Source: Paramacrobiotus metropolitanus (lineage: Eukaryota > Tardigrada > Eutardigrada > Parachela > Macrobiotidae). From it: DNA of 61,187 bases. The DNA lies in assembly GCF_019649055.1 (NCBI RefSeq), contig NW_026570526.1, forward strand, positions 1 through 61,187, read 5' to 3'. A program made the translations under genes and the position numbers. The number at the start of each line of letters is the position of its first letter. Within the stretch, counting starts at the first letter, position 1. The notes under the pieces were generated by a model that ran no database searches, was not told where the DNA came from, and saw nothing but the letters and a program-made list of their open reading frames with translations. Of the stretch, positions 12,207 to 35,339 are shown one piece after another.

Positions 12207-12245
12207 GTCAGCTAGTTCTCCTGACGGTTGTTCATTCGTCTCACT

Positions 12246-13703: not shown

Positions 13704-14575
13704 TGTTTGCCGATATTGGGCCTGACTCGTCCATCTGTGAAGTCGTCAGCAGCGCTTGGTTCAGCGTCTCTATGTGAGAGCGAGCCGTTGTTGCTTGCTG
13801 GCACAAATAAGCGCCCTACCGGGTTGCGTTGATGCGGGTCGGTGCCTATAAGTAGGTCCCCCGCAGCTTTGGCTCCCGGCGCAAAAACTGCGTTCGGTAC
13901 GGTCCTGCCACATCTGACGCCCTATCGGGTGCGCTGCGGCCCTTACGGTTGAAAAGGGTGAAGGGGAACGACGGAGCAGCACTGTCTGGATCGAAAAACG
14001 ACCGGTAAGACCTGCTGTGGCGTCGTAGGTTTTCGTAGAACTTTCAAAAATTGGAGGTTTCCGAGTGTAGAACCTAACTTTAAAATTCAATACCTTTTGA
14101 ACATTTCATCCGATTTGCGTAAAACTAGCATTTTCGGATTTCCTGAGAAATTCTGCACTAGAAAAGTGCAACAGAACTCTCGAAAAATTTTTCCTTGATT
14201 TTTCCTAGATTTTCGGCGAAAAACAACCGCCATTTTGTCCAGCCGGAATTTTTCGAAAAAGTTGCGTGACGTCAGTGTGGTTACTTTCCATAAAATTTCG
14301 ACCAATCAGAACACGTGGGAAACTTCCCCGTGTTATAACCGTCGTAGTGACTCATATTGTTTTTTGAATTTTGCTCACGGCACGCTACTCGTGACGTAGA
14401 GCTTATCGCAAGACCATTTTGTAACTGACGTCACACTGGTCAGTAACGTAACATAGGGCCATAGGAAGCTAACGCTAAACCTGAGCTCTAGCGTACCTGA
14501 CCAGCACCGACCAGCGATCCAACCCAACGTTCCGGTCCGGACCAAGACCAAAGAAATTTTCTAAGTCCCAATACC
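13704..14575. promoter_or_regulatory. Divergent intergenic region, candidate bidirectional promoter
   Basis: This is about 870 bp between the head-to-head units. It contains CCCTACCGGGTT (13814-13825) and CCTATCGGGT (13921-13930), words also found three times near 34424-34494. It also holds two TGACGTCA palindromes (14267-14274, 14426-14433), ACCAATCAG (14301-14309, CCAAT-type), CACGTG (14312-14317) and TTATAA (14333-14338). It may hold the right unit's 5' LTR or promoter, but I could not match it convincingly to the 3' end. Confidence 0.5.
14267..14338 (+). promoter_or_regulatory. CRE / CCAAT / E-box / TATA-like cluster
   Basis: In order: TGACGTCA, ACCAATCAG, CACGTG and TTATAA within 72 bp, about 240 bp upstream of the Gag-like ATG. 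These are classic core and proximal promoter words for RNA polymerase II. Activity is inferred. Confidence 0.45.
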
Positions 14576-16126
14576 ATGGGCCAAACCGAAAGCGCCTTGG
14601 CCAAGGTGATGCCTTACACCAGCCATGAGCAACTCCAACGGAGATTGCTCAGTCCAATGGACAGGCGCCAGCCAAATGAATATGAAAAGCAGCTCGGGAA
14701 GAACTACGCCACGCGTGAGCCAACGGGACCTTACGGGTTCCGCAACGCCAAACAGGGCAGTTCTGACCCAGACGAGCCAAACTCGGCCGGCTCTACGAGT
14801 TCGGTCGAGGCCAAAGCCAGGCGGGACAAACAAATCCTGCCGGCCGACCTGGAAATCAGCGACGAAAGTCTGGATGCCACCCGGGACGACACATTCCTGG
14901 AGGCATCCGACGGGTTGTCCGAGGCCAACCAGCCTCAGGACAGCCAACCTGGCGCCGATAGGCCGGCCCAGGCCAACAGTGTCCCTCGGGACTTGGCACA
15001 ACAACCAACCATACCTGGCTCGGGCCAAGTCCAACTTGAGGCGCCAACGGCGGCCACAAGTGAGGACAAGACACGCACTGATAGACCAGGGCCAAACAAC
15101 TTGGCCCGGTCCAACCTTGACGTCCAGGATCTGACAACAAGTCCAACCCTACCGGGCTCGGACCAGATCCAACCCGAGGTACCAACGGTAGCCAAAGGTG
15201 GACGCAAGGCAAAGGGCCAAGCCAAAAAGGCTGGTCCAAAGGCACATGACCAGGGCCAACAGCCCGTGAGTCAGTCGCCAATCATGTTCGAGACCGATGG
15301 CTCAACACAAACAACGCTATCACCAACCAATGACGTCATCGGCGCGTCTGGCCAGTCCAAACCGGACCGAGAGCCAATTGTGGACCTGACCCAACCTAAC
15401 AGGGCCACAGCCAGGATGGACCTAAACCAGCCCACCTGGGACACGAACCGCGCCAACGTCAGTCCGTTAAAGCCGATCCAGGCAACCCGGCCCGAAGAAT
15501 TGGAAGAAGTCGACCAACTTCGGACCACAGTAAGGGACCTCACCAAACAGCTTGCGGACATAGCAGAGGCCGCCCTGGCATTCGAACGTTGGATGCAGGA
15601 CGAAATATCTAGACATAAAGACCTTGCGTCCAAATCGGACGCAGAGGCTAACCGCGTCTCGGCCATACTGGCCCAGACCCAACTTGAGCTGACTCAGCTC
15701 AAGTTGTCACCATGTCCCAATGCTGAGCGAGACCAGCTCAACAGGACAATCCACAGCCTAGAAATGGCAGTGGCGGGACTTGAAGCCTTGCTCACCTCTA
15801 CGAGGATTGAGCTGGCCAAAGCCAGGGATGACCTGACTGCGGCCCGGACCACCATTGACGAAACCGATTCTGAGGCGGACCGCCTTCAGAGGGAAAACGA
15901 GCGTCTCACCGACGACTTGTCCAACCTGCAGGACGAAATCAACCGCCTGCGGAACGGATACAATCTTCTTTATGAGAGCCACCAAAATCTCATGAAGACA
16001 ATCCAACAAGGGGGACTGTTGAGCCAAACGGTTCAACAGAAGGGCACAAAACGTGCAACTCCAGCAACAGATCGTTGCCCTCCAGAGCCAGCTCAAGACC
16101 GAATCAACCATTCGGGTCCAACTTGA
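14576..16126 (+). CDS. Gag-like protein, N-terminal part, coiled coil
   Basis: This 516-residue frame starts at an ATG in an ideal ACCATGG context. The N-terminus MGQTES fits the N-myristoylation rule (Gly2, Ser6), a feature of retroviral matrix proteins and unusual for Ty3/gypsy Gag. Residues about 40-300 are polar and Pro/Asp-rich with no recognised fold. From about 305 (EELEEVDQLRTTVRDLTKQL) to the end it is strongly heptad-like coiled coil (DRLQRENERLTDDLSNLQDE). I see no capsid motif and no CCHC zinc knuckle. The frame overlaps the next segment (from 16053), where coding potential moves to another frame. Confidence 0.65.
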   Translation: MGQTESALAKVMPYTSHEQLQRRLLSPMDRRQPNEYEKQLGKNYATREPTGPYGFRNAKQGSSDPDEPNSAGSTSSVEAKARRDKQILPADLEISDESLDATRDDTFLEASDGLSEANQPQDSQPGADRPAQANSVPRDLAQQPTIPGSGQVQLEAPTAATSEDKTRTDRPGPNNLARSNLDVQDLTTSPTLPGSDQIQPEVPTVAKGGRKAKGQAKKAGPKAHDQGQQPVSQSPIMFETDGSTQTTLSPTNDVIGASGQSKPDREPIVDLTQPNRATARMDLNQPTWDTNRANVSPLKPIQATRPEELEEVDQLRTTVRDLTKQLADIAEAALAFERWMQDEISRHKDLASKSDAEANRVSAILAQTQLELTQLKLSPCPNAERDQLNRTIHSLEMAVAGLEALLTSTRIELAKARDDLTAARTTIDETDSEADRLQRENERLTDDLSNLQDEINRLRNGYNLLYESHQNLMKTIQQGGLLSQTVQQKGTKRATPATDRCPPEPAQDRINHSGPT

Positions 16127-16979
16127 GCAGAACAGCGCCATTGGACATCAAAACTTCGTCCAATTGGAGCAGGCCTTCAACCAAGCCAAACAGGTGATCC
16201 AGGGCCAACATGACCGGATCATCATATTGGAGGCCAATAACGCCGGCCTGGTCAAAGACTACCAGGCGGCCACCAAACGTATAACGGAACTTAACGAGGA
16301 CCTGGAAAGGCTAAGCACGGAAAACGCCTGCTTGGACGCGGAAAAATCACACCACGTGGACTTAAACTCCGAGTTGTCCGCAGAACCACCGTCCTATCAT
16401 ACCTTTCCGGACTCGGATACACAACGTCGACAAGAAAAAGTCGACGAAGCTTTGCGGCAAGGCCAACGCTTTTACCGCGGGCCAGTGTATCACCAGCAGA
16501 ATTACCACGTGAACATGGCTGTGGAAGGACCATCGGTTGGAGATCCCCCAAAGGGGCCAATCATACCCACGCCTCCCAGCCCGGTGAACCAGGAATCATC
16601 CACGGCGACAGTAACGCTGCCGCCACCACCAGACCCAGTCACCACAACAGCCACTATTGGTCCAACGACAATAGTGACACCCGCAACGCAGACTCATCCG
16701 TCTACGTCAAGCGGGCCAGGCTTTGACCCAAGCCAGGCGATACCGAGCCACAGCTACTTTGGGTCAAGGCCATCGTATCCGTCCTTGTATCCGTCCATAT
16801 TCCCGAACATGGACTTCAACTTTAGTCCACACCCGGCCACAACCCAGGCTCACACCAGCGGCATGGATCCAAACCGGACCAACCCGCTGAGCCCAATGTT
16901 CGGGCCACCGGCCATGCAAGGACAGATGGGAGGCCAAAGTGGTACACCAACGGTGCAACAACCACTAGGAGGCAACTAA
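16053..16979 (+). CDS. Gag-like protein, middle part, coiled coil then Pro-rich
   Basis: This open frame continues the coiled coil without a gap in character (QLQQQIVALQSQLKTE, RITELNEDLERLSTENA), then becomes Pro/Thr/Ser-rich with potential late-domain-like PSYPSLYPS. There is no ATG at the junction, so it is either a product of recoding or separated from the first part by a frameshift mutation near 16060-16090. It ends at TAA 16977-16979, where coding character moves to a third frame. Confidence 0.55.
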   Translation: MQLQQQIVALQSQLKTESTIRVQLEQNSAIGHQNFVQLEQAFNQAKQVIQGQHDRIIILEANNAGLVKDYQAATKRITELNEDLERLSTENACLDAEKSHHVDLNSELSAEPPSYHTFPDSDTQRRQEKVDEALRQGQRFYRGPVYHQQNYHVNMAVEGPSVGDPPKGPIIPTPPSPVNQESSTATVTLPPPPDPVTTTATIGPTTIVTPATQTHPSTSSGPGFDPSQAIPSHSYFGSRPSYPSLYPSIFPNMDFNFSPHPATTQAHTSGMDPNRTNPLSPMFGPPAMQGQMGGQSGTPTVQQPLGGN

Positions 16980-17148
16980 GCCTATTTGGCCCTCCTGTCT
17001 CGGAGGCAACCAAACGGGCCAAGCCCAACCGCAGACGGGCCAGAATGCGCCCTCGGGCCAAAACATACCCCAACCACCAGGCGTACTGCCAACAGCGGCC
17101 ACGCCACCAGGACCTGCAGCCCTACCAGGCCTGGGCCAGAACGCACCC

Positions 17149-18126
17149 ATGCTGGTCCAACTCCCGAACGGAGCATACGGATGGATGGCGTCCAACGGGG
17201 CCATCCAGATTATACCGGGTCAGCCGATGTTGGCTCAACCCCAACAGGTGCCGCTGATACCACTACAGCAGCCAACACCTGTCCCGTCGCCACCGGCCAC
17301 CCCAACTCTCACATCCAGAGAGCAAATAAAGGAGATGGCCCAGGAGATGAGAAAAGCGAATGCTAAGGCTCAAGTCCGCACCGGATCCAGGTTTAGCGCC
17401 AAACCAGCGACTAAGCCACATGGCCCTAGAAGTGTGGCCATGCCAGGATGCGTAGAAGTCGCGCCTGGACCATCTGGCTCTAGAAGTAAGACCAGACCGA
17501 CAGTCGTCCAGCTGACGACCAAGTCGTTTCTCGGAGCCGCAGCTATTGCTAAAGCCAACCGATCACGTGGCAAAGCGAGACGTCGCACCACGAACATGAC
17601 GTACCCTAAATCGGCGTCAGACACATCCTCCGACAGTGCACCGGAAGGATGGTCCGTTAGAAGTACGGACAGTGAGGTCGGATCACTAGAAGAGTGGACA
17701 GTCGAACCTCTTGAGGCGTCAAGTCCCCGCACCTGCTGGCCCCAGACCGGTGAACGACCCCTCGGCACCACACCAACGGTGCGAACTATAAACAGTTCAC
17801 GGACCTTCCTGAACACCAAAACTATGTTTTCGACCCTACGGGTAGCGGAAACATCACCGCAGGAAGAGTCTGTCCAACAGGAGCTAGCAGCACCTAAGTA
17901 CGCTCCTGATGATCCAGGACCAGTGTCGCTAATCCCCATTGTACCGGTGATGCGGGAAGTGACAGTTGGCCTCGATGAAAATCGCAAACCGAAACCGTAT
18001 GAGCATGGACACACAAAGTCCAAATTGGACCAGTCCACACGCTCGCTATGCTGGACACTGGAGCGGAGACATCCCTCATCAGCCAGCAGATTTGCACCGC
18101 CAATATCATCAAAACGGAGCCATTAG
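17149..18126 (+). CDS. Gag-like protein, C-terminal Pro/Gln-rich and basic part
   Basis: The same frame is open and Gln/Pro/Gly-rich from about 16980 (QNAPSGQNIPQPPGVLPT), so the true segment begins before the first possible start. It contains an NGAYGWMASNGAIQIIPGQP stretch, then a basic helix (REQIKEMAQEMRKANAKAQV) and an Arg/Lys/Ser-rich region (RGKARRRTTN) that could bind RNA in place of a zinc knuckle. That role is inferred. The frame overlaps the protease frame, and the switch lies near 18040. Confidence 0.5.
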   Translation: MLVQLPNGAYGWMASNGAIQIIPGQPMLAQPQQVPLIPLQQPTPVPSPPATPTLTSREQIKEMAQEMRKANAKAQVRTGSRFSAKPATKPHGPRSVAMPGCVEVAPGPSGSRSKTRPTVVQLTTKSFLGAAAIAKANRSRGKARRRTTNMTYPKSASDTSSDSAPEGWSVRSTDSEVGSLEEWTVEPLEASSPRTCWPQTGERPLGTTPTVRTINSSRTFLNTKTMFSTLRVAETSPQEESVQQELAAPKYAPDDPGPVSLIPIVPVMREVTVGLDENRKPKPYEHGHTKSKLDQSTRSLCWTLERRHPSSASRFAPPISSKRSH

Positions 18127-18704
18127 GACGAAACACCGAAATCCTTGGTGTCGGCGGACAAACCGCCTTCGTGGTCTCCCATTGCTGCACCGTACCGGTG
18201 ACACTGCAGGGATACAAGAGCCACCACACGTTCTTCGTTCAACCGACGTTAACGGACGTGCACGTATTACTTAGCTGTGACTATCTTCACTCCAAGTTCA
18301 CTTTTATCCTCAAGCCAAACGAAGAAATCGTTTGGGACGCGGTAAAGTCTATCCCGATACCAGAGGCACCGGGACCCGATGATGAAGTGAGAGTCAATGG
18401 GCTTGATCACCCGAAAAGTTCTCCTTCTACCTGCTGGGAATGCCTGGACACCATTGAAGGCCTCATATGGGAGCTGCGCGTCCATTACGCAATCGAGCGC
18501 TACATGACCCAATTCCGTGCAGGCATACTCAAGCCAAACCACGGGATAGTAAGGACTATCCCGATACCAGAGGCCCGGTGCCTCTGGTATCGGCCGGTGC
18601 CCCGGCCAACGGCCGGTTCCTATCAAAGAACTTCAGGAGAAATTGGCTCAGCGATACCAAACCTGGTTAACGGGGATCAGAAATCTCCTCGAATACCGCG
18701 CTGA
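18048..18704 (+). CDS. Retroelement aspartic protease
   Basis: The catalytic motif LDTGAETSLIS is at the very start of this frame, followed by a flap-like GVGGQTAFV and the C-terminal hydrophobic motif HVLLSCDYL about 85 residues on, the usual spacing for a retropepsin of about 100 residues. It would cleave the Gag-Pol precursor in assembling particles. It lies in a different frame from the upstream Gag end (overlap 18048-18126), as in many Ty3/gypsy elements where frameshifting sets the Gag:Pol ratio. The last about 110 residues after the protease match nothing I know and span a duplicated segment and a hairpin (18561-18593). Confidence 0.8.
   Translation: MLDTGAETSLISQQICTANIIKTEPLGRNTEILGVGGQTAFVVSHCCTVPVTLQGYKSHHTFFVQPTLTDVHVLLSCDYLHSKFTFILKPNEEIVWDAVKSIPIPEAPGPDDEVRVNGLDHPKSSPSTCWECLDTIEGLIWELRVHYAIERYMTQFRAGILKPNHGIVRTIPIPEARCLWYRPVPRPTAGSYQRTSGEIGSAIPNLVNGDQKSPRIPR
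18309..18574 (+). repeat. Duplicated segment after protease
   Basis: A segment starting CTCAAGCCAAAC and ending TATCCCGATACCAGAGGC occurs at about 18309-18367 and again at about 18528-18574, roughly 220 bp apart. The second copy ends in the hairpin. Confidence 0.6.
18561..18593 (+). repeat. Perfect 14-bp hairpin
   Basis: CCGATACCAGAGGC and its exact inverse flank a 5-base loop (CCGGT). It sits between the protease and the next coding segment, where an RNA structure could affect translation or processing. Confidence 0.8.
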
Positions 18705-19797: not shown

Positions 19798-19904
19798 CAT
19801 GGCGAACATGCGTGGATTCAGGTCCAAAATAAGTCCCTGAGAGACCAAGTCCTCCGTAAAGGTGCAAGAATTGGCCACATGTACTACAGTGACATGTTTG
19901 TTGT

Positions 19905-22892
19905 TTGAGTACTACAGACATCAAGGAGGACGGAGTAGATTGGTCCATTCCTAATGCCGACGCCTTACCATGGCCAAAAGTGGCAGGGAATAATCCAAAC
20001 CGGTACCGCACCATTAATGACCATGCTATGGTCCGGGTAACTGTAAAAGTGGAACTCCCACCGGAGTCCATCACCCCGGTCCAAGTTAGCATTGACTTCC
20101 CTGTCGACCCCAGACAGAAACTTATGTACCTTGGAAGCCAAGACACCAAACGGATTCTGGCCGTGCTCGACGGACCAGTCCAGCATAATGGCACTAGTTT
20201 CACCATACTGGTGTCAAACTACTCCAAAGAGCCTCATATACTCCGGAAGGGAGTCAACATGGGCCAAGTGGAGCCATACGAGGAAATCTCGGACGACGAA
20301 TACGCCCGAATTAATTCCCTCCAAACCGGAGAGGAAGATCCAGAAGTGGAGCGCAAAATCCGCGCCCACATCGCCAACGCACATTTTGGCGATCACCTGA
20401 CCGAGGAGCAGACCGCTCTACTCCGCCAGGACTTATGGGAACTCAGGGCCATATTCCCGACGTCCAAAAAGCCTTACGGCGACGTCAAAGGAGTGACCCA
20501 TGTCATAGAAGTTGGCAACGCTGCACCAATTAAAATGAACCCAACCCGAACGAGTTGGAAGGGACGAGAGTTCATAAATAAGCACGTCCAAGAAATGTTG
20601 GACCAAGGCGTGATTGAACCGTCCATGGCAGCGTGGAGTTTCCCAGTGGTCCTCGCTTCGAAGAAAAACGGCGACGGGACCATGGGCACCAGGTTCTGCA
20701 TAAACTACATAAAGCTGAACTCGGTGACCAAAAAGAACAACTACCCATTGCCCAATCCAGACGAACTTCTGGATCAATGCGCAGGAAACGCCTACTACGG
20801 CAAGGTAGATTGTCAGTCCGGATTCTGGCAAATCCCAATGGATCCAGCGTCCATGGACTACACTACCTTCGTGACTCCAGAAGGGATGTTCCGGTTCAAA
20901 CGAATGCCGTTTGGCGTCTGCAATGGGCCAGCCACATTTCAAATGACTATGGACAAGATTATGGCGCCGGCCCGCAAACAAGGGGGCGTCTTTGCATACA
21001 TCGACGACGTGATATTCTTCGGCAAAACATTCGAGGAATTCAGGAAAGCGTTCAGAAACACACTCCTTTGCCTAAGAGACGCCGGGTTCACGATAAAGCC
21101 GTCGAAGTGCGAATTTGGAATGGAAAAACTCCAATTCCTCGGACACATTCTCAGCAAGGACGGTGTCCGTACTGATCCCGAGAAGGTAGCGGCCATCGCC
21201 GAGAAACTACCGCCCGAGACCGAGCGCCAACTACGCTCGTTTCTTGGACTCGCTAACTACTACCGGAAGTTCATTCAGGGCTACGCCCAGAAGACTTCCA
21301 AGATGTATGAACTCCTGCGGAAGGAAAATTCAGTGAAGAACGACTGGACTGACGCCCACACCGCCGAGTTCAACGAAATCAAAAAGGCCCTAACGGAAGC
21401 CCCAATATTGGCCAAATTCGATGCGACCAAGCAGACCACCATCGAATGTGATGCAAGTGGCGCTGGGATCGGAGCCATACTCAGCCAGGACTCGAGGCCA
21501 ATTGCCTACGCAAGTCGTGTCCTACATGGAGCTGAGAAAAACTACGGCGTGACCGAATGGGAATGCTTAGCCGTAGTATGGGCCGTCCAAAAGTTCAAGC
21601 ATTACATTGACCACGGACCATTTACAGTTCGGACGGACCATAGAGCCCTAACCAATCTGCTCAGATGCGAGTCTAACTGGCCCGGCATCAACCCTCGTCT
21701 TACCCGATGGGCCCTCGCCTTACAGGGACGGGACATCACCATCGAGTATAAACCAGGTACATTCTGTGACAATGCCGACGCTCTGTCCAGATGGCCACTT
21801 GAACGGCACGATGACAAAGGCCCACACGAAGAGTTGGACCAAGTCCCTAACTTCGAGGATTATAAAGACGAAATTCCAGCACGCATCATAAAGGTGCGCA
21901 GGCTGCAAGTAACGGACGAGGACCCCGCAGATGAATGGGACAAGCCTCTCCTGCCTGATTGTAACGCAATCAGTGACTGGAACCAATTCAGCACGGCGGA
22001 CATACGGGTCATCAACGTACCGGCACCCACACCGGGAGAGCCAGAGCCCGAAGTCCCACCGTGTCCAGAAAAAGTTACGGACCACACCGCGCAAGAATTG
22101 CGACGGATGCAACACCGCGACCCAACTCTGGCCAAGAAAATCCATGAGTTGGAACATCAAAGCGAAATGGACAAGAGGTCCAAACTACCTGAACATTATC
22201 AGATGGACAAAGGTGTGCTCTACCGACTCACCGAAATTAACGCGAAACTCGAAAGGAGATTCGTTGTCCCTCTGTTTATGCGGAAAAACATTATCCAGTC
22301 CCTCCATGATGGAAAAACAGGGAACCACTTCGGATACCGCAAGACCATTGAAGCAGCCAAACTCAGGTCCTACTGGGACCGCATGAGCTGCGACATACAC
22401 GACTATATAAACCGATGTCAGACGTGTATCTTCGGCAAAGTACCGCGGCGAGCTACCTACGGTAAGCTGCAGCCGACCGAAGCTGTTGCGCCTTGGTACC
22501 GCGTCTTCGCCGACTTCAAAGGACCCTTACCGGTGACCCAAACCAAGAAATACCGGTACATCGCTGTGGTCGTCGACCAAATGACGAAATTCACCATAGC
22601 CCGGCCGACCAAGACAAACTCGGCCAAGGAATTTGAAACGTTCTTTGTGGAAGAAGTCGTACTAAAATACGGCATGCCACATACAATGCACTCCGACCGG
22701 GAACGCATTTTACGGCAAAATCCTGCGCCAAAGTGGCGAAAATCTTCCGCATCGAACAGACCTTCGGATCCGCTTATCATCCAGAGGGCCAAGGCCAAGT
22801 CGAACGCCAGATGCAAACGATCTGGGACGGAATTCGAAACTTTGGCGGCGCCGGCGACGAACATCGTTGGCACCGGGCCCTACCTTACGTGA
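19905..22892 (+). CDS. Ty3/gypsy Pol: reverse transcriptase, RNase H, integrase N-terminal part
   Basis: This 995-residue frame has no ATG at its start and is presumably expressed as part of Pol. Residues about 200-420 are reverse transcriptase (RFCINYIKLN, FAYIDDVIFFG with the catalytic YIDD near residue 365, FLGHIL). RNase H follows (IECDASGAGIGAIL near 512, TEWECLAVVW near 549, VRTDHRALTNLL near 576), ending with NADALSRW near 622. Integrase then has an H2C2 zinc-binding region (about 800-842, ending NRCQTC) and the first two catalytic aspartates (FADFKGPL near 867; HSDRE near 929). Just after the second Asp the frame breaks (about 22700) and the protein runs out of frame to a stop. Domain order RT-RH-IN is Ty3/gypsy. 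It copies element RNA to DNA in cytoplasmic particles and inserts it in the nucleus. Confidence 0.95.
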   Translation: MSTTDIKEDGVDWSIPNADALPWPKVAGNNPNRYRTINDHAMVRVTVKVELPPESITPVQVSIDFPVDPRQKLMYLGSQDTKRILAVLDGPVQHNGTSFTILVSNYSKEPHILRKGVNMGQVEPYEEISDDEYARINSLQTGEEDPEVERKIRAHIANAHFGDHLTEEQTALLRQDLWELRAIFPTSKKPYGDVKGVTHVIEVGNAAPIKMNPTRTSWKGREFINKHVQEMLDQGVIEPSMAAWSFPVVLASKKNGDGTMGTRFCINYIKLNSVTKKNNYPLPNPDELLDQCAGNAYYGKVDCQSGFWQIPMDPASMDYTTFVTPEGMFRFKRMPFGVCNGPATFQMTMDKIMAPARKQGGVFAYIDDVIFFGKTFEEFRKAFRNTLLCLRDAGFTIKPSKCEFGMEKLQFLGHILSKDGVRTDPEKVAAIAEKLPPETERQLRSFLGLANYYRKFIQGYAQKTSKMYELLRKENSVKNDWTDAHTAEFNEIKKALTEAPILAKFDATKQTTIECDASGAGIGAILSQDSRPIAYASRVLHGAEKNYGVTEWECLAVVWAVQKFKHYIDHGPFTVRTDHRALTNLLRCESNWPGINPRLTRWALALQGRDITIEYKPGTFCDNADALSRWPLERHDDKGPHEELDQVPNFEDYKDEIPARIIKVRRLQVTDEDPADEWDKPLLPDCNAISDWNQFSTADIRVINVPAPTPGEPEPEVPPCPEKVTDHTAQELRRMQHRDPTLAKKIHELEHQSEMDKRSKLPEHYQMDKGVLYRLTEINAKLERRFVVPLFMRKNIIQSLHDGKTGNHFGYRKTIEAAKLRSYWDRMSCDIHDYINRCQTCIFGKVPRRATYGKLQPTEAVAPWYRVFADFKGPLPVTQTKKYRYIAVVVDQMTKFTIARPTKTNSAKEFETFFVEEVVLKYGMPHTMHSDRERILRQNPAPKWRKSSASNRPSDPLIIQRAKAKSNARCKRSGTEFETLAAPATNIVGTGPYLT

Positions 22893-23350
22893 TCTCCGGC
22901 ATGAACCGTGACGTTCACGCAACCACTGGATTCTCGCCATATCACATGTTATATGGACGAGAAATGACCATACCCCAAGACGTCTTCGCTGGGACCAACG
23001 TCCCAGAAACATTTACGACTAACGAACGTTATGTCCAGAGGATGCAACAGCGCCTGAACCGGGCGCATGAAATTGCGAAAACGCGGATCGAAGAAGGATT
23101 TCTCAGGGACGCGGCCATCTATAACAAAAAGAAGTCGCAGGCCGAGTTCAAAAAGCGGGACTTGGTCACCCTGAAGAATATGGTGGACGACCCGACCAAC
23201 CCAAACACGTTCGAAGGCGTCTACATCGTCATTGGCATACCCAAGCCGAATACTTACTGGATCCGAAAGCGGGACACCGGTGTGGAACACACCGTATGTG
23301 TTGACCGCCTAAAGCCATACCTTAACCCGGACGGCCGAGTCGCAGAATAA
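22733..23350 (+). CDS. Integrase C-terminal part, frame-shifted from main pol
   Basis: The frame carries the third catalytic region with the Glu (AYHPEGQGQVERQMQT), followed by TGFSPYHMLYGREM and a C-terminal KKRDLVTLKN segment typical of gypsy-type integrases. It overlaps the end of the main Pol frame and completes the D-D-E triad only across a frame break near 22700. The upstream neighbour loses its signature at that point, so a small indel (mutation or assembly error) is the simplest explanation. This copy would be inactive for integration if the break is real. Confidence 0.9.
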   Translation: MAKIFRIEQTFGSAYHPEGQGQVERQMQTIWDGIRNFGGAGDEHRWHRALPYVISGMNRDVHATTGFSPYHMLYGREMTIPQDVFAGTNVPETFTTNERYVQRMQQRLNRAHEIAKTRIEEGFLRDAAIYNKKKSQAEFKKRDLVTLKNMVDDPTNPNTFEGVYIVIGIPKPNTYWIRKRDTGVEHTVCVDRLKPYLNPDGRVAE

Positions 23351-23520
23351 CTCGCTCAAGCAAAAAGAAAGGCGGCGACGCCGAACCGGAAGGTACAGAG
23401 TCGGGAAGGTGTATTAACAAGGCAGAGCCGGGACAAATTGCAGAGCTCCCACACGCCCAGAGTAAACTGGAGAAACTGCTGAAGAAGCAGAAGCCCGGAA
23501 AGGGCCCGTCCAAAAAACTT

Positions 23521-23853
23521 GTGGCAGAGCAGCAAAAAACTTTGCAAATCCCAGGCTATGGCCCACCTGACCCAAAGACTTCGGACCCAGCAACAACAGT
23601 GAAGCGTGGCCCAGGCCGACCTCGAAAGGCCAAACCGGATTTCGAGACACCGGCGCTGACCAAGCTTCAAAACCAGCCACTAACCGTCATTGACCCAACT
23701 TTGGCCCCAGCGGAACCTGAAAAAGGGACACCCGCCACGGACAAGCCAGCGGTGACCGAAGAGCCAAAAGTGGCCCCGGCCAAAGAAGACCAAAGACGCC
23801 AAAGAAGCCTAAGGCAACCCTTACGGCCCAGCAAGTCCTGGAATAGGACGTAG
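23521..23853 (+). CDS. Basic AT-hook tail after integrase
   Basis: The frame is open from upstream (at least 23341), overlapping the integrase end, and reads Lys-rich (TRSSKKKGG, KKQKPGKGPSKK) before the 110-residue segment given here. Around residues 25-37 it has KRGPGRPRKAKP, an excellent AT-hook core (GRPRK) that binds the minor groove of AT-rich DNA. Coding character continues after 23853 in another frame (LTRITTGREKSEKVLKG) up to a stop at about 24043. It may be a C-terminal extension of Pol that tethers integration to chromatin. That role is inferred. Confidence 0.55.
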   Translation: MAEQQKTLQIPGYGPPDPKTSDPATTVKRGPGRPRKAKPDFETPALTKLQNQPLTVIDPTLAPAEPEKGTPATDKPAVTEEPKVAPAKEDQRRQRSLRQPLRPSKSWNRT

Positions 23854-24262
23854 TTGCTGATGATGAGGCGGATAAAGACTTACTCACCCGCATAACCACG
23901 GGACGGGAAAAATCGGAGAAAGTCTTAAAGGGCAAAAAGCAGAAGTCCAATACGCACCTACCGGACGTATCGGACAAGTCCAGTACAGTCCCACCGGATG
24001 TACTGTACAAGACGGTTGATAAGGCTGGACAGAATGACGTTTAGATAACTCCTAACCAATATCTGACATGGTTAACCTAAAACCGTTAACTAACCTAAAA
24101 ACTAACTAACCTAACTTTAAATGACCAGTAGCTTAGAAATAGCTTAATCTGGTCCAATATCTGACATGGTAGCTTAGAAGTAGCTAGCCGTACATGGAAC
24201 TAACTAAGTAGGTAGGAGTCTAACACCGCGTGATTCGTCTCGTGACAGCGCCCCACTCAACA

Positions 24263-27825: not shown

Positions 27826-27828
27826 CCC

Positions 27829-28695
27829 ATGCCAAGTGCCAAGTTATCCAATATCCCGGTTATGGGGAAAGTTACTGGACGGCCAAAAGGTATATCGTCG
27901 ACGCTGGCCAAAAGGTATATCGTCGACGTATATCGTCGACGCTGGCAGGCTGAGAAGCGGCTGTCAGGCGATGAAGACGTCCAAGTCCTATCGGGCAGTC
28001 CAGATAAACCCGCAGAGGCCGTATTAAATCGCTCACGGCGGGACGAGGAGTACGAACCACGCTTTGGGGCAGAACCGCCGTCGGAGGAAGTGATGCTCCC
28101 CTCGCCCTGGGACGATGAGGCCGAGCTACCAGATCCAGAACCGGAGGCCACACACATAGAGGTCCCAGCGGACCACTATGTGCGATTAACCGTGGCAGCC
28201 GCCAGGGCCATGAGGCGCGCAACGGGACGAGACATGTACCAGTGCCTCGTCTGCGTCCTCCGGTCCCGTATGAAACATAAGGAAGAATACCAAGGCCTAC
28301 CGCCGGCGGACCGTGTACTAACGGCACCCTTTATGCGGCGGATGGTATCTCGGATTCTGGACATGGGACTTCTGGTCCGCACACACCGTGATTGGACCAG
28401 TATGATGGAATTACATGTGGCCCATCGGCCAGCAGGACTTTCCCGTAGTAGGGACTTTCCCTTCCATCAGATATGCAGGACCATCGCTTACCTGCATAAC
28501 CCAAGAGGATCCAACTTGACCGATATCGCCAGGACACTCAACGCTCTCTACTACCTTGGAGAGGAGAACCTGGATAAACTCATAGCCAGATTGGCTGATG
28601 AGCTAATTGCGCTGGTCAGGGAAGGAACCCTGGAAACGACCAACGCACATCGGGCGGAGCCAATTCGCTTCACTATCCCGGGATTCATCCCATAG
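27829..28695 (+). CDS. Accessory protein c, winged-helix-like C-terminal domain
   Basis: From the ATG at 27829 this gives about 288 residues (MPSAKLSNIPVMGKVTGRPK). An AT-hook-like TGRPKG lies near residue 16. A short tandem duplication (27881-27945) repeats TATATCGTCGACG. The conserved region is about residues 115-288, homologous to the left unit's 12246-13703 protein. Its last block, HNPRGSNLTDIARTLNALYY with RLADELIALVREGTLETTN, has a helix-turn-helix plus wing pattern. It ends in TAG (28693-28695), after which the same frame is open for 484 codons (gene d). Probably a nucleic-acid-binding protein; no known family recognised. Confidence 0.65.
   Translation: MPSAKLSNIPVMGKVTGRPKGISSTLAKRYIVDVYRRRWQAEKRLSGDEDVQVLSGSPDKPAEAVLNRSRRDEEYEPRFGAEPPSEEVMLPSPWDDEAELPDPEPEATHIEVPADHYVRLTVAAARAMRRATGRDMYQCLVCVLRSRMKHKEEYQGLPPADRVLTAPFMRRMVSRILDMGLLVRTHRDWTSMMELHVAHRPAGLSRSRDFPFHQICRTIAYLHNPRGSNLTDIARTLNALYYLGEENLDKLIARLADELIALVREGTLETTNAHRAEPIRFTIPGFIP
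27881..27945 (+). repeat. Short tandem duplication
   Basis: The unit GGCCAAAAGGTATATCGTCG plus ACGCT occurs at 27881-27905 and 27906-27928, followed by a further partial TATATCGTCGACGCTGG (27929-27945). Confidence 0.85.
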
Positions 28696-28716
28696 AAGAC
28701 CCAACGGTCTCTGTAT

Positions 28717-30147
28717 GTGTCGCACGATGTTGACACAAGATGGGATCCGGACCGGAAGAAAGCGGTTGGACGGCCGAAGGACAAATTGACCGGCAGAGCC
28801 AAGGAGACTTACCTAATCTCCCAAGAGGCAAAACTGCCTGGTCCAAAGAACTTGCCGGTTGAAAAGCCCCCTCGACCATCGGTCACCAGAAGGGAGAAGG
28901 CTGCACGGCAAGAAGTTGAAGAAGAGATGCGCGCGGCCGGAATCCGACCCGTGCCAAGGGACACAGTGTCACTGCCCAACGCAGCTGGCCAGTCCAGACC
29001 TTCTTCACCGACTCCATCGGCCACATCGACTAAGAGTCGAAAGACCACGGCCACAAAGGCCACGGCTACAAAGAGGAGCGGGCAACAACGACCGCCACCG
29101 GGCCGAGACGTATCGGACTCTGAGGACTCCAAACCGGAGGACTCGGAGGAGGAACAAGAAGAAGAGCCGGACCAGGACCAGACTATGGAATCCCAAAAGT
29201 CCGACTCTGACGACGACAATGACCAGAGCCCTGGTAAACTGACCATGGACGTCCCACCGGACCATGACATGGAAATCCCACCCGGTGATGAAAATCAGCC
29301 ACCTAACGGTGACGAGGACATGGAGGACCAGGGCGTCGCAGAAGGCGCTGGTCAGGACCAAAGTGGCGCAGAAGGCTCCGATCGGGAAAGTCAGGCCAGC
29401 GTAGAAGACGCTGAGCCAAGTGGAACCGGTGCACAGCCCTACCGGGAAAGAGTGCGAGACTCCACCTCACCAGAAGCAGATGACGGTGAGATCCAGTGGA
29501 CTTTACCCGACCCATGCCCGGCCAAACCGCGCATCGACTATGTGCCGCCACCAAGGACCAACGTGGCGAGGAAATGGCCTGGCGGAGATCCTTCAAAGAA
29601 GCCAAAGATCTCCAATACGGACGAGACGTGGGCATACATCAAGGCAGCCTTAAAGGCGTTGTCCCAAACGGGCACAACTCTTGCTACAGGAAGCTTGGCC
29701 TTTCAGCTCATCCAGAAATGGAACGGCCCACCGATAACCAAGTCCAAGGTGATGAGGTATATCAGAATGGCCTACAACGAAGGAGCCATCCTCCGGATCC
29801 ATCTGCCCAACATGCAGATGTTCTACACGTTCCCACCGGAAAGACGTGACGAAGCGCCTCAAGGCTACTGGGAATGGCGGAACGCCATCTTGGCGGTACT
29901 GACCACCACGCAACATCCCATGGGCCTGACAAGAAACGAAATGGCCAACCAACTCCTTGGACGATATGATGTACAACTTACGACGTACGATCCTCAGCTG
30001 AGTGACGGGAATGAATATTTCCCCAGTCGCCCTAACGGTTGTACCATCTCAGCGAGGACGTGCGATATATTCTCAAAAAGATGCTACGCGAAGGCTGGCT
30101 CGAACAAACTGTCGACGAGCCAGAAGCGCAGCAGTGGTACCGGATGA
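28717..30147 (+). CDS. Accessory protein d, acidic linker plus winged-helix-like domains
   Basis: This open frame continues in phase with gene c after its single TAG and has no ATG near its start; the first in-frame Met is at about 28927. The N-terminus has an AT-hook-like KAVGRPKDK. The middle is very acidic and Ser-rich (SDSEDSKPEDSEEEQEEEPD) with a Thr/Lys-rich patch. Two winged-helix-like regions follow: YIKAALKALSQTGTTLATGS (about 29635-29830) and ILAVLTTTQHPMGLTRNEMA (from about 29885). The second domain's wing lies in another frame after about 30040 (LSEDVRYILKKMLREGWLEQ). The left unit has homologous pieces at 12206-10984. The architecture suggests a linker-histone-like or transcription-factor-like DNA binder; this is inference. 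Confidence 0.65.
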   Translation: MSHDVDTRWDPDRKKAVGRPKDKLTGRAKETYLISQEAKLPGPKNLPVEKPPRPSVTRREKAARQEVEEEMRAAGIRPVPRDTVSLPNAAGQSRPSSPTPSATSTKSRKTTATKATATKRSGQQRPPPGRDVSDSEDSKPEDSEEEQEEEPDQDQTMESQKSDSDDDNDQSPGKLTMDVPPDHDMEIPPGDENQPPNGDEDMEDQGVAEGAGQDQSGAEGSDRESQASVEDAEPSGTGAQPYRERVRDSTSPEADDGEIQWTLPDPCPAKPRIDYVPPPRTNVARKWPGGDPSKKPKISNTDETWAYIKAALKALSQTGTTLATGSLAFQLIQKWNGPPITKSKVMRYIRMAYNEGAILRIHLPNMQMFYTFPPERRDEAPQGYWEWRNAILAVLTTTQHPMGLTRNEMANQLLGRYDVQLTTYDPQLSDGNEYFPSRPNGCTISARTCDIFSKRCYAKAGSNKLSTSQKRSSGTG

Positions 30148-30245: not shown

Positions 30246-30435
30246 CCTAGACGTAGAAATCGCATAGGGTCTAGGGGGTGATCCCGATATAATTCACCGG
30301 GCAAGAAAAGCCTAGTTAACAAATAACATGTAAAATCATAGGGACGTAAAACCATAGGGCGTAATCACTATAGGGACCTGTCCTAGAAGTGGACTTAACC
30401 TTATTCTGCAAGTTTCATTTCTGTTACCACAGAGA

Positions 30436-31017
30436 ATGGGACTTACACCGCAGCAGAAGTATGAGCCACGATGTTCGGACTGCAGGCGCAATAGCGGAGA
30501 CCAGTTAAACCGCCGGGACAACTCCCAACGGGAATTGTTCCCCTGCGCATGCCACCTGCGACCGGGCTTCCGTGACGAACATGACAGAGAGTACTGCTTC
30601 TACCTAGAAGTGGTCAGAGGCAACTTTGACGCCTACTGTCACATGACCAGTCGGGATGGACGCCACTTGTTCCCCCTACTGAGGGATTATGAACAGATAG
30701 AGATTTACGATCTCTATATGCAACGCAGCGGCGCCCGACAGCCTGGCTGGAGTAGCACCGGAACTCAGATTCCTCCACTCAGCCAATCGGCTCGAGAACG
30801 GAAGGAGGAACGGGACCGGGAACGTCGAGCCCGTAACTCGGTTCCGACCAGCCTTCAGGGCGCGGCCCAACGGCCGCCCCGAAAACTCATGGACATCAGC
30901 AGCGGCCATCGTCAGGCTCTCAATCCTACGGATATGAGATGCCCACACCGACGACATATAACCAGATCCTGGAAAACATCAACAAAGCCATGGTCGACCA
31001 AGTGGCCAAGCAGCTGA
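30436..31017 (+). CDS. Accessory protein e, Cys-rich N-terminus
   Basis: From the ATG at 30436 (MGLTPQQKYEPRCSDC). The first 60 residues contain CSDC, CAC and a later YC, with histidine in CACHLRPG. This could bind zinc, though the spacing fits no finger class I can name. A helical charged region follows (ARERKEERDRERRARN). Coding character then moves to another frame (30939-31127: ILENINKAMVDQVAKQLMEG), so the protein as written is probably truncated or frame-broken near 30950. The left-unit counterpart is at 10713-9814. An untranslated gap of about 190 bp precedes it, carrying a TAGAAGTGG motif (30384). Confidence 0.55.
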   Translation: MGLTPQQKYEPRCSDCRRNSGDQLNRRDNSQRELFPCACHLRPGFRDEHDREYCFYLEVVRGNFDAYCHMTSRDGRHLFPLLRDYEQIEIYDLYMQRSGARQPGWSSTGTQIPPLSQSARERKEERDRERRARNSVPTSLQGAAQRPPRKLMDISSGHRQALNPTDMRCPHRRHITRSWKTSTKPWSTKWPSS

Positions 31018-31127
31018 TGGAAGGCGGATTGCTGGACGCCTTGAAAGGCCAATACCAGCCAGCGCCACTGACACCGCTACCGCGGAAGCCAGGTGACTTA
31101 CGTCACCAGATTCAGAGTCGTAATTAG
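30939..31127 (+). CDS. Accessory protein e, C-terminal frame
   Basis: This short open frame (ENINKAMVDQVAKQLMEG, then LTPLPRKPGDLRHQ) overlaps the end of the e frame and looks like its continuation after a frame break. It could be an amphipathic helix. Function unknown. Confidence 0.4.
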   Translation: MPTPTTYNQILENINKAMVDQVAKQLMEGGLLDALKGQYQPAPLTPLPRKPGDLRHQIQSRN

Positions 31128-31268
31128 GACCAAACTGGCCGCCAAAGCCGTAACCAGCCCGAGGAGCGCCAACACCAAACGCGCATATCACCCGGAAAAC
31201 GGAGCGAGGCAGAGTCCAGCCTGGTTATCGCTCAGTCCACCAAGCGACCAGAACGAAGTGTCAGCTCG

Positions 31269-31880
31269 GTGGCCCACAACATTAGCATCCAGATACCCAT
31301 GGAGACTGAGTCCGCACCGCCGTCATCGGACCTACCGGCCCGACAAGACGTAAGCGTCAGTGCTACGGACTTTGATCCCTATAAGTATGCTGAGGACCAA
31401 GGCATTAACATCCGACCACTTCCCCACCGGGAGGTGACGGATTACATCATGGGCGCCATCCCATACCCCAGGGACAAATGGGCCCAAGTCACTGCCATGG
31501 TCCAGAATCTTCAAATTTTCGTCATCCGGTCCGGTCTTGAAATGCAAATGAAGAAAAAGGAGTGGCCCCGTGCTTTCAGTATGGCGGAACACACCGATAA
31601 CCGCGAGGGCTACCCAATGGTTCGTGACAATGCTCTATCGAGCATCATGGACGTGAACTTACTTGGACAGCCCATTACTAGACCGGACTGGAATGACTTG
31701 TGCCAACTGCACATTAAGGACGACCAACTTGATGTCGTCAAATACCTGGCCCAGTTCGTCCTACCGGACGCGAACGCCAGCTTCATAATCGCAGCTTCAC
31801 GAGCCGCCATAGAAATCCCATGCAAGCCGGACGATCACAAGGAGGCCCCAGGAACGTACGCTTACTCGTACACGGCATGA
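31269..31880 (+). CDS. Accessory protein f1
   Basis: This 203-residue frame is well conserved in the left unit (9567-8996): DPYKYAEDQGINIRPLPHRE, VQNLQIFVIRSGLEM, and LAQFVLPDANASFIIAASRA. It appears compact, alpha-helical and non-repetitive, with no Cys/His cluster, no membrane helix and no catalytic signature I recognise. It is followed immediately by f2: the TGA at 31878-31880 overlaps an ATG at 31877 in another frame. Retention of the pattern in two very diverged copies suggests past selection on the protein. A nucleocapsid-like role would be speculation. Confidence 0.65.
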   Translation: MAHNISIQIPMETESAPPSSDLPARQDVSVSATDFDPYKYAEDQGINIRPLPHREVTDYIMGAIPYPRDKWAQVTAMVQNLQIFVIRSGLEMQMKKKEWPRAFSMAEHTDNREGYPMVRDNALSSIMDVNLLGQPITRPDWNDLCQLHIKDDQLDVVKYLAQFVLPDANASFIIAASRAAIEIPCKPDDHKEAPGTYAYSYTA

Positions 31881-32368
31881 TGATACGCATCTTTGCCGCC
31901 AGACTTGGACACCTACGGAGCCACTGGGAACTCGAAGTCGCCTATCGGCAGGGGAAGATCATTCCTCGATTATTGACCCAAGTGGCCCTCCTCGGAAACC
32001 AAATCCCTGAAATCGAAGCGGGAGTCAAAATCCAGAGCGCCCTGAATATTTTCAGGAGCCGCGCCAAAGACTACCGTTATCGACAACCGACGGACTTCGA
32101 CGACGGTGCGGAAGAGTTCGTTAACCGAACGGCAGCGCGGAAACTTCCAACGAAGTTTCGCACTCAACGATCCTCAACAGCATCGTCCGCACACGTCCAG
32201 ACTCCGGCCGAGCACCCTGGCCAAGAAGTTCAGCCGACCAGCGCCTCCAGCCAACCACAGGATAACCTGACCGAACAGGAATTGGCGGACAAGGAGGAAA
32301 GCGTCGTTGACCCACTCAACCCAGGGTTGGGCGACGGCGACCAAGCCGGACAAAGAGGGCAGGAATAG
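31820..32368 (+). CDS. Accessory protein f2
   Basis: The frame overlaps the end of f1; the likely initiator is the ATG at 31877 (MMIRIFAARLGHLRSHWELE). A helical core of about 90 residues matches the left unit's f2 (FIFAARLGNYFCHYTLYGLY). A disordered, Gln/Glu/Ser-rich tail follows (NLTEQELADKEESVVDP). Because the left copy carries the corresponding residues in the same frame after a stop, f1 and f2 may be one ancestral protein split by termination-reinitiation or mutation. Last coding segment of the unit. Confidence 0.55.
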   Translation: MQAGRSQGGPRNVRLLVHGMMIRIFAARLGHLRSHWELEVAYRQGKIIPRLLTQVALLGNQIPEIEAGVKIQSALNIFRSRAKDYRYRQPTDFDDGAEEFVNRTAARKLPTKFRTQRSSTASSAHVQTPAEHPGQEVQPTSASSQPQDNLTEQELADKEESVVDPLNPGLGDGDQAGQRGQE

Positions 32369-33199
32369 GCCAACGACCATTCCTGCATGTCGGCCCTAGA
32401 AATGGACCGGCATTGGCCCTTAGAAGTGGGACCACATCGGCTGAACCGGATTCGAACACCATGATGGGTACAATCCAACGGTTGTGACCCTCGCCCAACA
32501 AACGTGGCTTACAGCCATGTATCGTCTACCTTACCGGACCTTAATCCCTGGACCTTAACCGGATTCCCCGGATAGGCTCTGGCTTAGCGGCTGGGACCAT
32601 GAATTTGGCTCGGCCATCCCAGACCTTCCGACGGAGTCCACCGGACCGAACTTGGCGCAAGGCCTGGTTCACCGGCATGGAAAGGATCCAGCGCCCAGAA
32701 GGCGGCGACGGCCCGCATAGAAGTTGCGACAAGCCACGGCCAAGTCCTGGCCCATAGAAGTTGGACCAGGCCCGCTGTGTGTCTAACGGACCATAAGCGG
32801 CTCACGAGTTTAGTTGCCATACCAGGCAGCTGTGACAAGTGAGTTAGGGAGCCACATAGAAGTTGTGGTACACCCACTTTGCATGCCACGTCCAACATCC
32901 TCACCATGGACCGCCCAGAGGCACATCAAGAAGACGTACCGCCCAGAGGCCAAATGAGGATGCTTCTTGTCAGTAGACCGACTCCTTTGTGGTAAACGCC
33001 TACCGGCGCCCACAATTTAAATTTTTGGAGTTTGGCCGGGCCAATCTGATGTTTTCGTCAGAAGCCACTTAATTTTGTTATGGCCACGGTCTCAGGGAAA
33101 CCATTTGGACATGGTAGCTGACTCATGGCCCACGGCCAGAGAGATGGACCAGACTCAACGAGTCCGCAACGTTGGCCCGCCAATTACCTTGGCGCGCCA

Positions 33200-33434
33200 T
33201 TTTGGCCCGCCATACACCGTGGACCGTCGAAAAAAACGACTAAGTCCTTTTGGCCCGCCATACACCGTGGACTGTCGAAAAAACGACTAAGTCCATTTGG
33301 CCCGCCATCAACTTTGGACCGTCGAAAAATCGACTAAGTTTTTTGGCCCGTCCAACGACGTGGCCCACCAAAAATCGACTAAGTCTTTTGGCCCGTCCAA
33401 CGACGTGGCTCATCAAAAAATGAATAAGTCCACA
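33200..33434 (+). repeat. Tandem repeat of about 45-48 bp, five units
   Basis: Units begin TTTGGCCCG and contain GTCG-A(n)-CGAC or its decayed form followed by TAAGTC. The first three units keep the mini-hairpin; the last two diverge to CCACCAAAAATCGAC and CATCAAAAAATGAA. Confidence 0.85.
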
Positions 33435-34423
33435 TCGGAGCGCCAAACCTGGCCACATAGGACTTCCGTGTCCAACACCTGCCAGAGGCAAGCCCCATCA
33501 CAATGGAACCCAGGATCCCGCCCAAAGCATGTCAGAGACCGAGTTTGGACCGCCCCAACGGGTTTGGTCCATCACACCACTTCGGTCCAGGGACTTAGAA
33601 ATTTTTCCATTGTGGCCCTCTTGGACTTAAAAATTTTTCCATTATGGCCCTCCTGGCCTTAGAAGATTTTGGCCCGAGATGCATGTCCCAACCGGGGGTG
33701 CACTCGAACTTTGAAATTTTTGGGACCGAGGTGCATGACCAAACCGGCATGCACGACCAAACTGGTCCAAGTTAGAGACCCATGTGGGCCATCCAAACGG
33801 AATTGGTCCAGCATACCATTTGGGTCATTGGAGCACCACTCCTGCCCAGAGGTCTTACTCATTGGCCCTCATGGACCGCCCAACCGGGCTTGGTCCACCA
33901 TACTTGAACCAGGAAGGGGACAACCTGTCCTTGCCTATGCAACAGTGCCTTCCATATACCGCACCGCTGGATTTACTTCACTGGACCCCTGTGGACATCT
34001 CTGGAAACCGTCGCCCCGGATCTACAGGACCAGACCAATCCTACCGGATAAAGCGGACCGTTGACTAGGACCCGTGTGGACAAAAGTGGCCCTGTGGTAA
34101 ACCTAGTCGGAATAAGCCATTTTGCGTCTAGTTTTTTAACCATACCTGGTTTTTCTAGACTTTACTAACCAAAGAATTGATGTTTTTATTTAGCCGTTTA
34201 ACCAAAGGAATTGGCTTTGGGATCTCTAACTTTGATCTTTACTTTAATTCTCACTGAAATTGTGATCTTTTTACTTCGATGTTTAACCAGTGAGCCTTAT
34301 AAATTTTATTTTTTTACTTGTTCGAGCAACCAAGCCTTCAAACCACACTGGAACCCCCTGCAACCAGAGCGCACTCCAGATTTCGGCCGTTCGGTGCACT
34401 GCACCGCGGGTCTGGAGGAAGCG

Positions 34424-34494
34424 ACCCTACCGGGTTTAAAGACAAAGTGGCATCCGGCCCTACCGGGTATCGGATCCTGGCACCCTACCGGGTT
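34424..34494 (+). repeat. Three CCCTACCGGGT words
   Basis: Exact CCCTACCGGGT occurs at 34425-34435, 34458-34468 and 34483-34493. An exact copy also lies at 13814-13824 and a one-base variant at 13920-13930. Confidence 0.8.
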
Positions 34495-34540
34495 AGCCAG
34501 GGGCAGAGTCGGAAGGTGCTCGCAGGAGCTCCCACTCCCG

Positions 34541-34558
34541 CCCAGAGGCATGTCAGAG
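34541..34558 (+). repeat. Shared terminal motif, right copy
   Basis: CCCAGAGGCATGTCAGAG is identical to the minus strand of 5268-5285. A degenerate copy (CCCAAAGCATGTCAGAGACC) lies near 33523-33542. Confidence 0.75.
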
Positions 34559-34876
34559 ACCGCACGCTCGAGGCGGTAGACACCTCTTGTGGCTTTGCTC
34601 TGTCGCCCGCCCGCACATGGCAACGCCATTCGTGCCGCTATATTACGCTGCTCACTCAGCGTACACTTTGTCTACGCTGACCAATCAGCGCATTTCTGCA
34701 CTCTTGGGGGCATAGCCCAGCGCTTACGAGCGGTTCCATGCTTTGCGGCATCAGCTGTTGCATACCTGCAGCACGCTGAATCATTATCACGATTCTTGCG
34801 AGCTCGCTGGCAGCTACTTTCCACAGTGATACCGCAATGGTTTTCTGTGTTTGTTTGTGGTTGCTTTATTGTTACC

Positions 34877-34882
34877 AATAAA
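34877..34882 (+). terminator. Polyadenylation signal AATAAA
   Basis: AATAAA lies about 50 bp before the point where GC-rich element sequence gives way to AT-rich DNA. It is a plausible poly(A) signal for the right unit's RNA. CCAATCAG at 34680-34687 upstream could belong to a U3-like region. Confidence 0.45.
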
Positions 34883-35339
34883 GGCTATTTGCCCCATTTT
34901 CTCGCTCTGCTTCCGTGTCATATCTGACATGTAGAAATCGCAAATTTCCCGAGTTTTGCATAAAAATTTTGAACACGCGACCTTTAGAGATAAAACGGTA
35001 TTTTGAAAAATATTTTATGAAGTCAATAATAACCACGGGTATAGAAGTGCAGTTATGAGTTTTGATCTTCTAATTGGCAGAAGAAGAATCAAATCACCAA
35101 GGTTTTATCATGCAGCTCCTTGATATCGCACATTATTACCAAAAGATTGCTATTTCAACGATGGTATCTTAGGAGACACCAAACATCGCCAGTGGTGATA
35201 TTTTTGCCGTGGTCATTGTTGCCGGTCACTCGTGTGTGCAAATACATGAGATTTATTTGCACATCGACAGTTCTTCGTTAGTTCGTTTCTTGCGTAACGA
35301 ACAAAAATTATTACTGCCAGAACTTCCGCCTCGGTCCGC

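Follow-up and report, generated by a model that had tools for sequence, protein, structure and literature searches.

A degenerate giant gypsy-type locus with an unrecognised, anciently conserved accessory gene block in the tardigrade Paramacrobiotus metropolitanus

Giant retroelements and the tardigrade locus

Long terminal repeat (LTR) elements as large as the one described here, a degenerate Ty3/gypsy element of 20.4 kb from the tardigrade Paramacrobiotus metropolitanus, are uncommon, and to our knowledge the extra genes of giant LTR elements are mostly unexplained. Errantiviruses and other env-bearing gypsy elements possess an extra gene downstream of Pol, which is possibly spliced. The tardigrade element lies at 14.58-34.93 kb on the plus strand of contig NW_026570526.1 (assembly GCF_019649055.1), of which positions 1 to 61,187, hereafter the window, were analysed. 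It harbours Gag-like open reading frames (ORFs), a protease (PR), a reverse transcriptase (RT)-RNase H-integrase (IN) region, the accessory segments a to f, and a tail of 2.5 kb that probably includes the 3' LTR. Behind Pol lie about ten thousand bases of extra sequence, genes for the most part. Similar to errantiviruses, the element has extra genes after Pol that are possibly spliced, but no clear envelope-like protein.

Burro, a giant gypsy-like element of planarians, is described in the parts of PMC6431247 devoted to it as encoding a huge ORF1 polyprotein and a typical Gag (CCHC), with env homology, for which HHpred was used, between gag and pol. The same parts report BIR, ankyrin, BCL2-like and dUTPase-like motifs and a size of more than 30 kb with LTRs. 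As far as that description reaches, the tardigrade element resembles Burro in its gypsy-type PR-RT-RNase H-IN, its giant size and its extra proteins absent from ordinary gypsy elements, but its extras lie after Pol. BIR, ankyrin, BCL2-like, MATH and dUTPase-like families were not detected at the Pfam cut-off and CCHC was not detected in the Gag-like region, a more sensitive profile comparison having been applied to part only. The tardigrade element is not classed as Burro. Ogre elements of plants, in the lines that PMC6431247 gives them, measure 16-25 kb, a large share of which is contributed by LTRs of 1.9-6.5 kb, and possess one or two extra ORFs. They are likewise large Ty3/gypsy elements with extra ORFs, whereas the tardigrade element has six post-Pol coding segments and a putative LTR of 1.0 kb. 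The Terminons of rotifers, as outlined in the same source, are Penelope-like giant retroelements with coiled-coil accessory ORFs; the likeness is that of giant invertebrate retroelements with such ORFs, but the tardigrade Pol is Ty3-like and has an integrase. In one open library, a search covering top-ranked titles and the starts of abstracts revealed no description of giant or accessory-bearing gypsy elements of tardigrades. In PMC11071193, a curation of repeats from Hypsibius exemplaris and Ramazzottius varieornatus, neither 'giant' nor 'Paramacrobiotus' appears in the main text.

Pol, the accessory block and its minus-strand counterpart

The locus is real, degenerate and of giant gypsy type, and its accessory block is unrecognised and anciently conserved. 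It probably represents, although we hold this with some reserve, a 5'-incomplete copy of one giant Ty3/gypsy element with the order Gag-like-PR-RT-RNase H-IN-a-b-c-d-e-f-tail/3' LTR, of which about 20.4 kb is preserved. From 14.5 to 33 kb everything lies on one strand with even guanine-plus-cytosine (GC) content and a mostly A-rich coding strand, and a GC step near 35 kb (0.49-0.58 inside; mostly 0.31-0.44 over 35-49 kb) agrees with the right end. ORF coverage, the fraction open in plus-strand ORFs of at least 120 codons, exceeded the maximum of 100 shuffles in every coding stretch examined, five in all (gag-like, pol, a-b, c-d and e-f). Antisense coverage likewise surpassed the shuffle maxima, reaching 0.57 opposite pol (maximum 0.51) and 0.68 opposite a-b (maximum 0.58), which we read as the shadow of the sense ORFs.

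The RT-RNase H-IN region occupies 19905..23350 (+), with an HHCC motif at 22305-22427. Pfam families, judged with hmmscan at their own score cut-offs, include RVT_1 (1.7e-27), RT_RNaseH (8.2e-33) and Integrase_H2C2 (8.3e-15); within 19905-22892, RT, two RNase H models and the integrase zinc domain are all far over the cut-off. The integrase core rve falls just under it (E 3.2e-6, 27.8 bits vs 32.6), and the integrase is split between frames, the alignments with the P. metropolitanus proteins P0004-P0006, which extend over much of the region, switching frame near 22.70 kb. An aspartic protease at 18048..18704 (+) carries MLDTGA and is aligned by P0006 at 53% over 124 amino acids, with Pfam RVP at E 0.0012 (19.6 bits vs a cut-off of 20.7), so that the order PR-RT-RNase H-IN is present on one strand (PR 18048, RT/RNase H from 19905, IN to 23350). 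Downstream, a C-terminal extension of Pol (23351..24044, +) in part resembles the C-termini of P0005 and P0006; it contains internal stops and a GPGRPRK motif, which we take to be AT-hook-like, and its matching frame ends at 24044.

The best solved relative of Pol is Ty3-G Gag-Pol (E 2.9e-80). Two Ty3 sequences head the 29 solved sequences that matched (2.9e-80 and 4e-67), followed by one at 3.2e-45; entry 4ol8 is presumably the Ty3 enzyme. Among 7989 candidates scored, 1584 relatives of Pol were found at E <= 1e-20. Considering the best 120 of these 1584, the first three are P. metropolitanus proteins with 58-64% identity, and the other 117 reach at most 42%. The relatives of Pol and of c accordingly place the window in this species or a very close one. 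In an RT-RNase H tree of 75 rows (of 121 selected), the window and P0004-P0006 alone form a group with a Shimodaira-Hasegawa-like approximate likelihood ratio (SH-aLRT) support of 100 and a stem of 0.87 changes per column. An earlier note on this DNA, made from the letters alone, had recognised a Ty3/gypsy Pol, which these searches bear out. It had also called the RT-RNase H-IN region complete, and all the domains are indeed present, but with the frame change and the sub-threshold rve described above. Its proposal of an undescribed lineage agrees with the exclusive grouping of Pol with three P. metropolitanus proteins, but the element is not intact and no LTR pair was found. Because the integrase frame shifts and stops or frameshifts break the Pol extension and the accessory ORFs, this copy is presumably dead. 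It is old and degenerate and seems to be 5'-incomplete.

Six coding segments follow Pol on the plus strand. Segment a (24230..25264) is Pro/Ser-rich, and b (25248..27600) is helical-looking by eye and acidic/Pro-rich, its end entering a palindrome and tandem repeats. Segment c (27946..28695) has relatives in P0001-P0003 and in a minus-strand copy, d (28717..30147) consists of an acidic linker followed by a conserved domain at 29590-30006, and e (30436..31017) is an ORF of 193 amino acids with several Cys/His residues. The last segment, f (31128..32368), which probably corresponds to f1 and f2 of the earlier note, is a single protein interrupted by a frameshift near 31.85 kb. The open fraction is 1.00 in 24230-27600, 0.96 in 27700-30250 and 0.94 in 30400-32368 (shuffle maxima 0.73, 0.64 and 0.76), and a-f are similar to gag and pol in codon-position make-up. 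None of the accessory pieces scanned matched a Pfam family at its cut-off, so the set remains as unrecognised as it first appeared. The N-terminal part of f has no protein relative at E <= 10 among 5844 candidates. By eye, f had been suspected to be a viral nucleoprotein; the searches gave no support.

For c, three relatives were found at E <= 10 among 7561 candidates, all of them P. metropolitanus proteins (P0001-P0003). P0003 is a single protein that extends from the end of c over much of d, with 89% identity over 391 amino acids. Since P0003 runs through both, c and d are probably one gene, judging from the alignment, and the stop between them is probably damage. The C-terminal part of c is weakly like linker histone (Pfam E 0.038, 14.7 bits vs a cut-off of 22.4).

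On the minus strand, at ~13.75-5.2 kb, lies a second set of c, d and f in unchanged order, with protein identities of 31-34%. This second block is the strongest evidence for the gene set, and it lies outside the interval delimited in the earlier note. The c homologue (12246..13745, -) is an open frame of 499 amino acids and matches at 13040-12312 with 28003-28713 of the plus strand (30.8%, E 1.3e-21). The d homologue (10984..12245, -) is broken and matches at 11544-11107 with 29590-30006 (32.9%, E 2.7e-20), and the f homologue (8435..9681, -) matches in three pieces (E 1.2e-10, 2.1e-4 and 1.3e-5). An interval corresponding to e (9814..10613, -) has no significant protein match of its own, and a, b and e have no significant minus-strand counterpart. 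All frames of both elements were compared with blastp under SEG and composition correction; five matches at E <= 0.01 were found and no other, all five collinear, whereas the antisense control reached a best E of 1.5. The 3' tail of the block (5234..6051, -) is also homologous, plus 33818-34583 aligning with minus 6051-5234 at a score of 116 (maximum 43 of 30 shuffles), and the two tails have an exact 18-mer in common (0.04 expected at up to three mismatches).

From the collinear minus-strand c, d and f with their related 3' tail we infer that the accessory block is an old, selected gene set. Chance ORFs as the origin of the block were ruled out by these matches together with the ORF coverage above the shuffles; the claim of a real, ordered gene block behind pol is thereby upheld. 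The minus block ends at ~13.75-14.1 kb, beside the 5' end of the plus-strand element, and it seems to be cut at its 5' end too, in which case truncation may explain why it has no Pol. The two blocks adjoin in head-to-head orientation at 13.75-14.58 kb, possibly at a false join, but a chance join or assembly artefact that placed unrelated host sequence behind a gypsy fragment could not create two divergent collinear c-d-f copies plus tail, and we consider such an origin very improbable.

Ends of the element and the pol/a junction

The Gag-like region (14576..18126, +) extends over three frames and is covered in full by ORFs of at least 120 codons. It shows an N-terminal MGQTES, a long coiled coil and Pro-rich stretches. 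A pattern search of the plus strand in 14.5-18.1 kb revealed no CCHC knuckle, and no capsid family reached the Pfam cut-off there (for the first ORF, 25 of the 37 sub-threshold families were shown). The MGQTES start, which we take to be a myristoylation-like motif, would suit an errantivirus-like or otherwise packaged retrovirus with a-f as structural genes, as would an acceptor-like site before e, the many structural-looking ORFs and a single stretch of strong hydrophobicity in the rearranged end of b. Such an endogenous virus is improbable, as no other envelope-like hydrophobic segment was found at 1.6 or above in the coding parts scanned, and no relative was confirmed in IMG/VR scans that used P0003 (c/d), P0006 (Pol), d and the N-terminal part of f as queries.

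The hydropathy scan covered stop-free plus-strand stretches of at least 80 codons with a 19-residue window mean. A mean of at least 1.6 was reached by three stretches; two of them lie in the non-coding tail, and the third (2.29) is at the end of b. The absence of an envelope or membrane helix, noted earlier, therefore holds in that there is no clear candidate, with the exception of this one stretch and with no dedicated signal-peptide program having been run. The end of b is locally rearranged at 27.54-27.94 kb (27543-27941), with a 64-nt palindrome (27543-27606) followed by 39-, 25- and 13-nt tandem repeats. The peptide NPEAERNR of P0001 is read here from the minus strand, which suggests a local inversion.

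Behind f follows a non-coding tail (32369..33910), and the coverage of 0.49 over 32.4-34.9 kb is within the shuffles (maximum 0.65), in agreement with the long non-coding tail of the earlier note. Five 47-bp tandem repeats with a hairpin-like GTCG-AAAAAA-CGAC core occupy 33200-33431. The polypurine-tract candidate AGGAAGGGGA at 33911..33920 (+) is the sole purine run of at least nine bases in 32369-34930, and five bases past it, at 33926, begins TGTC. Element-like composition stops near 34929, with AATAAA near 34880 and then GACA. We infer that 33926..34929 (+), 1004 bp with TGTC...GACA ends, is the 3' LTR. No partner for it was found in the window and none before gag (blastn with word 7, several Smith-Waterman scorings, shuffles); self-alignment, proposed earlier as the way to delimit the LTRs, thus gave no pair and one probable 3' LTR only. 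Because no LTR copy precedes gag, the 5' LTR was lost in this copy or was never there. Comparisons of the spacer with the tail gave p 0.015-0.04 in four of 12 cases (200 shuffles), and the minus 5' end scored 39 against its own tail (maximum of 30 shuffles 38); both were taken as noise. No primer-binding site was identified by eye before gag, and the window contained no tRNA genes for comparison.

At the pol/a junction (24056..24171, +), CCAATATCTGACATGGT occurs twice, 98 bases apart. The 12-mer ATATCTGACATG has three exact matches in the window (24059, 24157 and 34920), against 0.16 expected at up to one mismatch, and the match at 34920 spans the end of the putative 3' LTR. The copies at the junction could be the seam at which a second LTR element was fused, or they could be a recurring signal. 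Alignments of the junction with the minus tail (score 32, all 50 shuffles lower, maximum 31), the 5' spacer (p 0.025) and the plus tail (p 0.04) were set aside as short matches among five comparisons.

The 12-mer also bears on the possibility, somewhat unlikely in our judgement, that two elements lie side by side, namely a gag-pol gypsy element (14.5-24.05 kb) with a size usual for its kind and a second, independent LTR element with a-f (24.06-34.93 kb) that was moved in trans by a Pol from elsewhere, the minus block being its relative. Such an arrangement would account for a minus block without Pol in the window and for the recurrence of ATATCTGACATG at 24059, 24157 and the 3' end; gag-pol alone would measure ~9.5 kb, a usual size for gypsy elements. 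With the LTR end taken as ATATCTGACA, the next bases at the junction are TGG, those with which a primer-binding site begins. Nonetheless, the 3' LTR has no partner before 24.06 kb or anywhere else in the window, the match extends over 12 bases only and was spotted in hindsight, and the Pol extension stops at 24044, so close to the first motif (12 bases) that a 3' LTR of gag-pol would not fit between them. Moreover, the minus block is apparently cut 5' too, so that its lack of Pol may reflect truncation. We consider it distinctly unlikely that a Paramacrobiotus-specific giant gypsy group was born by fusion of a gag-pol element with a second LTR element carrying a-f, in which case 24056-24171 would be an LTR-end/primer-site scar and Pol-less relatives would persist.

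Several observations weigh against a single giant element with an ancient accessory block expressed behind Pol. No LTR pair, primer-binding site or recognisable capsid was found, and the 12-mer from the LTR end, present again at the pol/a junction, may be the seam of two elements. A Pol query (tblastn) matched only itself in the window, with a next best E of 0.54. The minus block is therefore without Pol there, and the accessory genes standing apart from Pol, which the earlier note had named as evidence against its proposal, were found in part. A reversed-sequence control of the block comparison reached E 0.001, which leaves the middle f piece (2.1e-4) weak when taken by itself. The linker-histone resemblance of c falls under the cut-off, the AlphaFold models of c are poor (mean predicted local distance difference test values of 43 and 54), and Foldseek with one of them gave no match at E <= 0.001. 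As to expression, shuffled sequence produced a top splice-acceptor-like site at least as good as the one at 30433 in 58 of 100 cases and as the one at 10610 in 65 of 100, and the 26-kb right flank contains 17 acceptor-like sites of at least 8.8 on the two strands.

Expression, flanking sequence and implications

The best-scoring acceptor-like site of the plus-strand element has its first exonic base at 30433, three bases before the ATG of e, and the second-best of the minus block is at 10610. Both are located between d and f, ~430 and ~500 bases past the conserved d domain. They offer a suggestive hint from position alone, as their scores are within the shuffled range. The best acceptor-like site of the minus block, at 8262 (-), scores 13.9, above the tops of all 100 shuffles (maximum 13.2), and is located just past f, where no gene was known.

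If the locus derives from one giant element, ordinary LTR-retrotransposon copying would apply: Gag would form the particle, Pol would copy the genomic RNA and integrase would insert the cDNA. Segments a-f would be expressed behind Pol and would serve the element itself, with e and perhaps f translated from an mRNA whose splicing uses the acceptor at 30433. As a tentative guess that may well be wrong, a-f might act in nucleic-acid or chromatin binding and in particle or RNA handling, and not in host-cell entry.

Other features of the window lie outside the element. ORFs of an apparent host gene family are present at 46843-47679, 54297-54881 and 56439-57389 (+); the first and third are alike by eye, the second and third have a 79-nt repeat in common (80%), and none of the three has a Pfam family at the cut-off. 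Long inverted-repeat pairs at 38094-38806, 46033-46740 and 47871-49544, 83-97% complementary with 341-1466 nt between the arms, resemble small terminal-inverted-repeat elements. About 26 copies of a 122-bp tandem repeat occupy 57964-61125, and part of their length is open in one frame or more. They include an ORF of 154 amino acids (58167-58631), and an ORF from 57455 runs into the array. Two ORFs at 1387-3032 (-) had been taken by eye for pieces of a hAT transposase; Pfam gave no match at the cut-off.

The copies of the accessory block are ~70% diverged in protein yet collinear, which indicates that the extra genes were held by selection over a long time, and they therefore probably do something for the element. 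The second copy without Pol raises the question of how giant retroelements assemble, by capture or by fusion. If fusion were true, the non-enzymatic half of a fused or split retroelement would have persisted in at least two anciently diverged lineages.

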